A stretch of 64,000 bases of DNA from Natronolimnohabitans innermongolicus JCM 12255 (lineage in GTDB: Archaea > Halobacteriota > Halobacteria > Halobacteriales > Natrialbaceae): assembly GCF_000337215.1 (NCBI RefSeq), contig NZ_AOHZ01000041.1, positions 74,953-138,952 of the forward strand, read 5' to 3'. The notes under the pieces are model-generated. The model did not search any database and was not told the origin of the DNA. It saw only the letters and a list, made by a program, of their open reading frames with translations. The translations under genes and the position numbers were made by a program. Positions 6,047-41,915 of the stretch are shown in pieces. Every line of letters starts with the position of its first letter. The first letter of the stretch is position 1.

Positions 6047-6221
6047 GGGGTCGTGGCCAAGCCCGGCATGGCGACTGACTCCAGAGGCAACGCGCCCGGG
6101 ACGACACTCCAGACTGATATACTGATCGGACACCTGATCAGTGTCCGTGTGATGACCCTCTGGAGTTCCGAGGCGCACCGGAGATATCAGTCGATCGGGG
6201 GTTCAAATCCCTCCGACCCCA
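6047..6221 (+). tRNA. tRNA-Trp (CCA) with 101-nt intron
   Basis: The acceptor stem is GGGGTCG (6047-6053) with CGACCCC (6214-6220) and discriminator A at 6221. The D arm pairs GCCA with TGGC, and the anticodon stem ACTGA pairs with TCAGT at 6187-6191. The anticodon CCA is at 6081-6083, and the T arm contains GGTTCAAAT. Removing 6085-6185 (an intron at the standard 37/38 site; a one-base shift gives the same product) leaves a normal 74-nt tRNA. CCA is not encoded. Haloarchaeal tRNA-Trp is known to carry an intron of about this size. Confidence 0.97.
6085..6185 (+). ncRNA. Intron-encoded box C/D methylation guide
   Basis: The intron holds box D (CTGA, 6122-6125), box C (GTGATGA, 6149-6155) and a D' box (CCGA, 6168-6171). 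The guide before D' (CTCTGGAGTT) pairs with the anticodon loop so that the fifth base upstream faces C34. The guide before box D (GACTGATATA) pairs with the 3' exon so that the fifth base upstream faces U39. These are the two sites known to be methylated by the H. volcanii intron. A perfect 7-bp hairpin (6127-6133 with 6141-6147) closes the box D/box C side. C' was not clearly placed. Confidence 0.9.
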
Positions 6222-40399: not shown

Positions 40400-40732
40400 G
40401 GCAACCGCTTTTCTCCGGGTAGATTCTACTTCTCGGCTCGAACTCGAGAGGCGAGATGAGGACAGTTTCGACGCTGTGACTCGAGCGCTTGCTCGGCGGA
40501 AAACGGTACATCTGGATTTGAACGACGTTGAGACGGTCACGATCGCGACGCTCGCGGGCTGTGACCGTTCTACTTTACATTCAGGCCGCACGATTCGCTC
40601 GCGAAATTGTTCGCGAAGAAGTGTCCGTCTGGGATTTGAACCCGATGCAAATCCTCGCTTCGCTCGGATTTCCGTGCTTCAACTCCCAGAACGTGCGCGC
40701 TTCGCTCGCTCGCAAAAACTCGCTCGCTGTAG
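40400..40732. other. Region with tRNA-Glu end duplication
   Basis: No gene seen. Two A+T-poor stretches with repeated CGCTTCGCTCGCTCGC-like sequence flank a partial copy of the tRNA-Glu 3' end (see the next entry). Confidence 0.4.
40619..40643 (-). repeat. Duplicated 3' end of tRNA-Glu
   Basis: TCCGTCTGGGATTTGAACCC at 40624-40643 is identical to 40736-40755, the T arm and acceptor end of tRNA-Glu; the preceding AGTG also matches with a one-base gap. This is the trace that integration of an element into a tRNA gene leaves behind. Confidence 0.8.
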
Positions 40733-40807
40733 TGCTCCGTCTGGGATTTGAACCCAGGTCATCGGCTCGAAAGGCCGAAATGATTGGCCGGACTACACCA
40801 ACGGAGC
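40733..40807 (-). tRNA. tRNA-Glu (TTC)
   Basis: Minus strand, 75 nt. Acceptor GCTCCGT pairs with ACGGAGC. The anticodon stem TCGGC/GCCGA encloses loop CTTTCGA, so the anticodon is TTC (Glu). The T loop is GGTTCAAATCC. The discriminator is A; CCA is not encoded. No intron. Confidence 0.97.
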
Positions 40808-40945
40808 GCTTACGTCGTTCGCACACCGAGCCTCGACAGACGTCGTCTGTCTCGACAACGGAGCGTGCGTCGAACGCATTCAGTGATTGCTGGGGGCTAG
40901 TAAAAAACGTTCCGTTCCGCGGCCGCAGTGGTAGGGACTGGCGTG

Positions 40946-41082
40946 CTATAGTAACAACTGAAACTGTTCACACACCAATCGCACAGCGCTCGTGCGATTG
41001 GGTGTGCACTGACTTTCAGTGCACGCCTAATCGCCGGATAGCGTTGCGATTAGTGTGTAACTCGTTTCAGTGGCTACTATAG
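40946..41082. repeat. 137-bp cloverleaf inverted-repeat element
   Basis: The ends are CTATAGTAACAACTGAAAC and its near-complement GTTTCAGTGGCTACTATAG (17 of 19 match). Inside are three perfect hairpins: CAATCGCAC/GTGCGATTG (40976-40984 with 40992-41000), GTGCACTGA/TCAGTGCAC (41004-41012 with 41016-41024), and CTAATCGC/GCGATTAG (41027-41034 with 41046-41053). A folded strand is a four-arm cloverleaf. No protein is encoded. It looks like a MITE-type or structural repeat. Confidence 0.85.
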
Positions 41083-41177
41083 GAACCCTCCGTCACCGTC
41101 GAAATTCGACGACTCGCTCGAGCGAACCGTGCGGCGACTTCTCAACGCTTTTCACCCCGCACGACGACGCATCTGGC

Positions 41178-41915
41178 ATGAAATACGTTCGATTCCGCGA
41201 TCCGGCGGGTGCGATCCGACGCGGCGAGTACGAGAGCGGCCACGTCCACTTCGGCAACGAGAGCTACGCGCTCGACGACGACGCGATCGACGTCTTGCCG
41301 CCGTGTGACCCCTCGAAGATCGTCTGTATCGGCCGCAACTACGCCGACCACGCCGACGAGATGGGCTCGGAACTCCCGGATCGACCGATGCTGTTCCTGA
41401 AGGGACCGAACACGGTCGCGAGCCACGGCGACACGATCACGACGCCGGCCGGTAAGGACCGCATCGACTACGAGGCCGAACTGGCGGTCGTCATCGGCGA
41501 GCAGTGTCGCCACGTCCCCGTCGCGGACGCGATGGACGTCGTCGAAGGATTCACCTGCCTCAACGACGTTTCGAACCGCGAAGACCAGCAAGACGAGCGC
41601 AACTGGATCCGCGGAAAGGCCTTCGACGGCGCCGCGCCGATGGGGCCGCTGCTCGCGACTCCTGACGAGGTTCCCGAAGACGCCAGCGTCCAGTCGCGAG
41701 TCAACGGCGAACTCAAACAGGACGGCCACCGCGAACAGCTCATCTTCCCCATCCCGGAGCTGATCGCCGAGATCACGACCTACATGACCCTCGAGGAAGG
41801 CGACGTGATCGCGACGGGCACGCCCGAGGGCGTCGGCCCGCTCGAGGACGGCGACGAGGTCGAAATCGAGGTCGAAGGCGTCGGCACGCTCGAGCACACG
41901 GTCCGGATTCCCTGA
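41178..41915 (+). CDS. Fumarylacetoacetate hydrolase-family protein
   Basis: 245 residues. KIVCIGRNYADHADEMG opens the FAH catalytic domain. The metal ligands are in DYEAELAVVIG and NDVSNRE, and GTPEGVGPLEDGD is the C-terminal FAH signature. Members cleave or decarboxylate beta-diketo acids in aromatic or sugar catabolism; the substrate is unknown here. Start ATG 41178 fits the family; the longer frame from 41070 crosses the repeat region. Confidence 0.9.
   Translation: MKYVRFRDPAGAIRRGEYESGHVHFGNESYALDDDAIDVLPPCDPSKIVCIGRNYADHADEMGSELPDRPMLFLKGPNTVASHGDTITTPAGKDRIDYEAELAVVIGEQCRHVPVADAMDVVEGFTCLNDVSNREDQQDERNWIRGKAFDGAAPMGPLLATPDEVPEDASVQSRVNGELKQDGHREQLIFPIPELIAEITTYMTLEEGDVIATGTPEGVGPLEDGDEVEIEVEGVGTLEHTVRIP

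Follow-up and report, generated by a model that had tools for sequence, protein, structure and literature searches.

Results

The element between tRNA-Glu and the FAA_hydrolase gene

The window analysed here, a stretch of 64,000 nucleotides from Natronolimnohabitans innermongolicus JCM 12255, contains at 40946-41082 an element of 137 bp, CTATAGTAACAACTGAAACTG...GTTTCAGTGGCTACTATAG, with a tRNA-Glu gene on one side and an FAA_hydrolase gene on the other. A preliminary description made from the sequence had placed the element there, with CTATAG at either end, between tRNA-Glu and a metabolic gene, and all of this was borne out. The features of the locus, including those that belong to the interpretation developed below, are as follows.

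40732-40807, minus strand: tRNA-Glu
40946..41082, no strand: probable inverted-dimer MITE, including the C and G of its CTAG target
40946..41012, plus strand: left half, read as E1 positions 1-67 of a AACAACTG-subfamily unit
40947..40948, no strand: putative left duplicated TA of the target C-TA-G, assigned from the pairs L084/L174 and L086/L175 and flank statistics
40975..41001, no strand: internal hairpin of the left unit, CCAATCGCAC...GTGCGATTGG, 10 bp
41004..41024, no strand: junction hairpin GTGCACTGA-CTT-TCAGTGCAC, the subterminal inverted repeat joining the halves
41016..41082, minus strand: right half, read as E1 positions 1-67 of a different, GCCACTG-subfamily unit, inverted
41027..41053, no strand: internal hairpin of the right unit, CTAATCGC...GCGATTAG, 8 bp
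41080..41081, no strand: putative right duplicated TA, assigned from the same two pairs and flank statistics
41178-41915, plus strand: FAA_hydrolase gene

The terminal 19-nt repeats match at 17 positions, as had been claimed, and the three internal hairpins are present, although with lengths of 10, 9 and 8 bp instead of 9, 9 and 8 bp. The element has no gene of its own, in agreement with the preliminary description; only two mechanical ORFs overlap it from outside or at the edge, one (40528-41082) entering it from outside and the other (41070-41915) beginning within its last bases. Its order was likewise confirmed to be far beyond chance, the RNA MFE being -80.8 kcal/mol compared with -36.5 ± 3.6 for 200 dinucleotide shuffles (z = -12.5), none of which equalled the element. 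The proposed four-arm cloverleaf was, however, rejected, because the extended full-length hairpin was more stable under both RNA parameters (-80.8 vs -57.5) and DNA parameters (-48.3 vs -32.8). The sequence, with 67-nt arms that are 78% complementary and a 3-nt CTT loop, is better described as one long inverted repeat than as a cloverleaf. Elsewhere in the window, a tRNA with a long insertion was detected at 6047-6221 (+) by Rfam (RF00005, 46 bits) and missed by ARAGORN; it resembles the intron-containing tRNA-Trp of haloarchaea.

An 84-bp unit dispersed in the home genome

A BLAST search of the home genome (G000; 4.59 Mb, draft assembly in 121 contigs) gave matches to the halves of the 137-bp element at dozens of places, and full-length copies of a unit of 84 bp were also found at dozens of places, three of them 100% identical over 84 bp. 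This family unit, TATAGTAGCCACTGAAACGATTTACACACTGATCGCAACGCTGTACTGCGATCAGGTGTGCAGTGACTTTCAGTGGCTACTATA, is an imperfect palindrome composed of an 80-bp core and a TA at each end, with the ends TATAGTAGCCACTGAAA...TTTCAGTGGCTACTATA. It is gene-free and has terminal inverted repeats of about 17 nt, so that it is short, non-coding, flanked by inverted repeats and dispersed in many copies, as is a MITE, and its length is constant, being exactly 84 bp in 71 of the 75 distinct copies compared. A scan of the home genome for the terminal repeats yielded 78 + 77 matches (155), compared with 3 + 7 (10) for the reversed-pattern control, which suggests that the genome holds roughly 70 units, a count that is approximate because some copies are duplicated around assembly gaps. 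Identical copies flank an N at C84:74446-74619, C15:51838-52010 and C50:7395-7570; as each pair spans an N, these tandem arrangements were not taken as biology and are probably assembly-gap duplications, not true tandem insertions.

Two further observations concern the form and the surroundings of the unit. A 146-bp variant (L063, 2618-2763) carries about 62 bp of other sequence that enlarges the hairpin loop, so the loop may tolerate extra DNA. Another family of palindromic repeats, GTGGCTTCCCAAGCCTGAACTGATGGGGCGAAT...CGCTTGGGAGGGTACTAG, about 85 bp long, was seen at, among others, the right flank of L015 and G000:C18:45465-45549. It occupies about a dozen places in the home genome and about twenty in G098, there is a CTAG in its end, and in several loci the 84-bp MITE directly adjoins it.

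The window copy as an inverted dimer

Each of the 67-nt halves of the 137-bp element matches the E1 end (positions 1-67) of the 84-bp unit. Across all 67 nt, the left half shows 100% identity to the copy at G000:C82:40515 (L002) and 98.5% identity to two more, and the right half is 88-91% identical to the E1 halves of other copies and 78% (52/67) to the left half. Judged by these identities, the window copy is best read as an inverted dimer, the E1 halves of which come from different subfamilies. The junction pattern TGCANTGACTTTCANTGCA occurred once in the 125 genomes of the family, in the window copy only. With regard to the further copies and empty sites that the preliminary description had recommended looking for, the 84-bp unit proved abundant and empty sites were found for related copies, as described below; the 137-bp form itself was found here only.

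Insertion at TA within CTAG

To look for empty sites, the sequences on either side of copies from one genus of the family were joined at a single TA and compared with the 29 genomes of that genus. A site in G076 (L174) matched the sequence flanking the copy L084 in G065, with 96% identity across 242 nt. The filled site reads CGCGCC[TATAG...CTATA]GAGATC and the empty site CGCGCCTAGAGATC, which has a single TAG where the filled site carries TATAG...CTATAG. A second filled and empty pair of the same kind was obtained (L086 vs L175), and the two pairs together indicate an exact insertion of 82 bp with duplication of TA inside CTAG, a target duplication that is typical of MITEs of the IS630/Tc1-mariner group. 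CTAG was the site of 32 of the 52 copies with intact ends, compared with an expected 2.4% (the CTAG share of NTAN in the same DNA), and none of these 52 had a target duplication longer than TA.

For the window copy, the syntenic site in G015 (L166) retains the tRNA-Glu and FAA hydrolase genes and lacks the element, with only about 65 bp between the conserved flanks. No base-exact empty site for this copy was found, the intergenic flank having diverged in G015 (L166) and G098 (L161), and searches for clean empty sites of home-genome copies in G098, G015, G007 and G096 gave partial flanks only.

Distribution among haloarchaea

The 84-bp MITE was found in 100 of the 125 family genomes and in 23 of 29 genera, the highest number per genome being up to 196 first-look candidates, not fully scored. 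In a class-wide sample it was found in 110 of 394 genomes, mostly of the home family, with others in the families f3, f4 and f7. Natrinema, Haloterrigena, Natronorubrum, Natrialba, Natronococcus, Haloarcula and Halomicrobium are among the named hosts. Nearly all of the best places of the MITE on annotated plasmids fall outside annotated genes, which is only a hint, given that the PLSDB gene tables are incomplete. The phage records searched gave no match, the six IMG/VR contigs with the terminal-repeat pattern held no full-length unit, and a Parcubacteria MAG (L250) that matched in one scan was also without a full-length unit.

IS630-type elements of the same archaea

IS630-type elements (DDE_3, PF13358) were detected in 75 of the 125 family genomes. 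Those with recognisable ends are mostly 1059 bp long, with termini of the form TATAGTAG..GTTAGAA, start with TATAGTAG or TATAGTAA and lie in C...G flanks; the two-part transposase region carries winged-helix/HTH and DDE_3 domains. The MITE has in common with them the TATAGTAG tip and the C-TA-G context, and, aligned in register, the ends show 42-51% identity at positions 9-30, compared with 9-39% when slid by 1-6. Thus, the MITE shares its ends with autonomous IS630 elements of the same archaea, the similarity being partial. A second IS630 group (L141-L160) was mostly without TA-bounded ends in a simple search. IS630 elements were also observed inserted inside 84-bp units (L111, L121 and L132), in L111 at an internal CTAG of the unit.

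IS630 was present in 67 of the 100 MITE-bearing genomes, whereas it was present in 8 of the 25 others (Fisher p = 0.0025, ignoring phylogeny); some genomes carry the MITE without a PF13358 match, and others the reverse. A PF13358 profile search of the home genome gave no match, and tblastn revealed one broken relative there, an IS630-type transposase gene at G000:C88:58565-59140 that has two internal stops and shows 68% identity across residues 1-192.

No intact IS630 transposase was found in the home assembly, though some MITE copies are identical there; an IS may have escaped this draft assembly, which consists of 121 contigs.

Discussion

We consider it very probable that we are dealing with an IS630/Tc1-mariner MITE that is mobilised in trans by IS630, the window copy being an inverted dimer of two subfamilies. 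Transposases of the IS630/Tc1-mariner type are known to insert at TA and to duplicate it. The TATAGTAG tip, the CTAG target and the in-register similarity, all shared, make an IS630-family transposase of these archaea the likely mobiliser. In such a process, the transposase from an IS630-family insertion sequence would bind the ends of an 84-bp unit in trans, cut the unit out and paste it into a TA, preferably in CTAG, with duplication of the TA. As identity between the ends of the MITE and those of the IS is only about 50% inward of the common TATAGTAG tip, another TA/CTAG-specific transposase could be the mobiliser. With respect to the dimer, the nature of its halves suggests that two copies became joined at the subterminal hairpin GCACTGA-CTT-TCAGTGC, probably by template switching or recombination. 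Since the TA/CTAG signature is kept at both outer ends, the dimer may either have transposed as a whole or have formed in place. It could instead have arisen by fold-back, that is, by a self-templated duplication of a single 84-bp copy that diverged later, because both halves hold the same 67-nt E1 part and meet at a hairpin able to prime synthesis. However, another copy still matches the left half with 100% identity, whereas the right half has 15 differences from the left in 67 positions and is like another subfamily, and divergence of one arm only, or later conversion of one arm, would be required. Fold-back is thus unlikely in our judgement.

The preliminary description had offered a non-autonomous mobile element, a structured RNA gene, or a recombination or condensation site. 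The mobile element is upheld by the many copies, the TA duplication, the empty sites and the IS630-like ends in the same archaea, whereas the other two options found no support. The covariation check that it had proposed was informative in this regard: among 41 diverse homologous copies, both-side changes were present in 15 of 35 stem pairs compared with 5.6 in shuffles, and 51 cells were changed on both sides compared with 10.2, slid controls being far lower, which indicates that the palindrome is maintained. The outcome named there as counting against the element, a single copy with no compensatory changes, was accordingly not seen, the unit being abundant and its stems compensated. Stable stems with such compensatory changes could belong to a structured or regulatory RNA, the hairpin of which works upon transcription, but the covariation gives no proof of RNA function, because symmetric transposase sites or arm-to-arm conversion would explain it equally well and the symmetry includes the terminal repeats. 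An Rfam search of the window matched only tRNAs, so that the element was not assigned to a structured RNA family, and the copies are scattered over many unrelated sites, with precise boundaries of insertion and with TA duplication; an RNA function is therefore extremely improbable. Two other kinds of mobile repeat come into consideration. A Haloquadratum-type small mobile repeat (SMR), moved by an enzyme unrelated to known transposons, is similar in size and form, HqIRS41 being 80 bp and the terminal inverted repeats of SMRs being prominent (PMC3119063), but SMRs are defined by the absence of a target duplication and by ends unlike those of any transposon (PMC3119063). The TA duplication and the IS630-like ends of the 84-bp unit led us to reject this class, which is very improbable here. 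A REP/BIME-like repeat moved by an HUH (RAYT/IS200-IS605) transposase would account for the GTAG beside the small hairpin CACTGA-AAG-TCAGTG at the E2 end and for the high copy number and mostly intergenic position of the palindrome. HUH transposition, however, makes no target duplication, and the duplicated TA with an insert of exactly 82 bp, together with true inverted-repeat ends in a TA/CTAG context like that of the IS630 elements of the same archaea, led to its rejection as the least probable of all these readings.

If the family is regarded as IS630-mobilised MITEs, a short repeat that is very abundant in Natrialbaceae-type haloarchaea has a likely mobiliser as well as defined boundaries, target and empty sites, and the striking cloverleaf-like sequence can be understood as an ordinary element that recombined on one occasion. 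A literature search for haloarchaeal IS630 MITEs found no description of the 84-bp family, and the genome paper of Natrialba magadii does not mention such repeats; the family is thus apparently undescribed in the literature searched, and it is a fresh example of familiar mobile DNA, not a new system. The family lends itself to tests of trans-mobilisation and of CTAG targeting in archaea. Every haloarchaeal genome analysed in PMC6471742 is depleted in CTAG, for reasons that the paper calls open, and an orphan methylase that is widespread probably acts on this motif (PMC6471742). Each insertion of the MITE, or of IS630 elements with the same target, destroys one CTAG. It is a speculative idea, to which we give little credence, that the methylation and scarcity of CTAG in haloarchaea partly reflect a defence against CTAG-targeting IS630 transposition; the link nevertheless makes the question of CTAG depletion and methylation testable.

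Several known systems can be compared with the family. IS630 of Shigella has been reported to prefer TA in 5'-CTAG-3' (Tenzen and Ohtsubo 1991, cited in PMC2170065); this preference is common to both, although IS630 is autonomous and has a transposase gene. The SMR/MITE families of Haloquadratum (HqIRS) are also transposase-free short inverted-repeat elements of haloarchaea, whereas the SMRs, compared by description, are without target duplication or relation to a known IS (PMC3119063). Correia/NEMIS of Neisseria is a short MITE with terminal inverted repeats, TA termini and target duplication, but, again by description, is longer (107/155 bp) and has another host (PMC2229807). RUP, the repeat unit of pneumococcus, with IS630-Spn1 is likewise a non-coding repeat (about 100 bp, about 100 copies) with terminal inverted repeats and a TA target, and its ends resemble those of the resident IS630, its proposed mobiliser (PMC2229807). 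Compared by description, the haloarchaeal unit differs in belonging to another domain of life, in its length of 84 bp, in being fully palindromic and in its strong preference for CTAG. By analogy, the haloarchaeal MITE may work in a manner comparable to that of RUP with IS630-Spn1.
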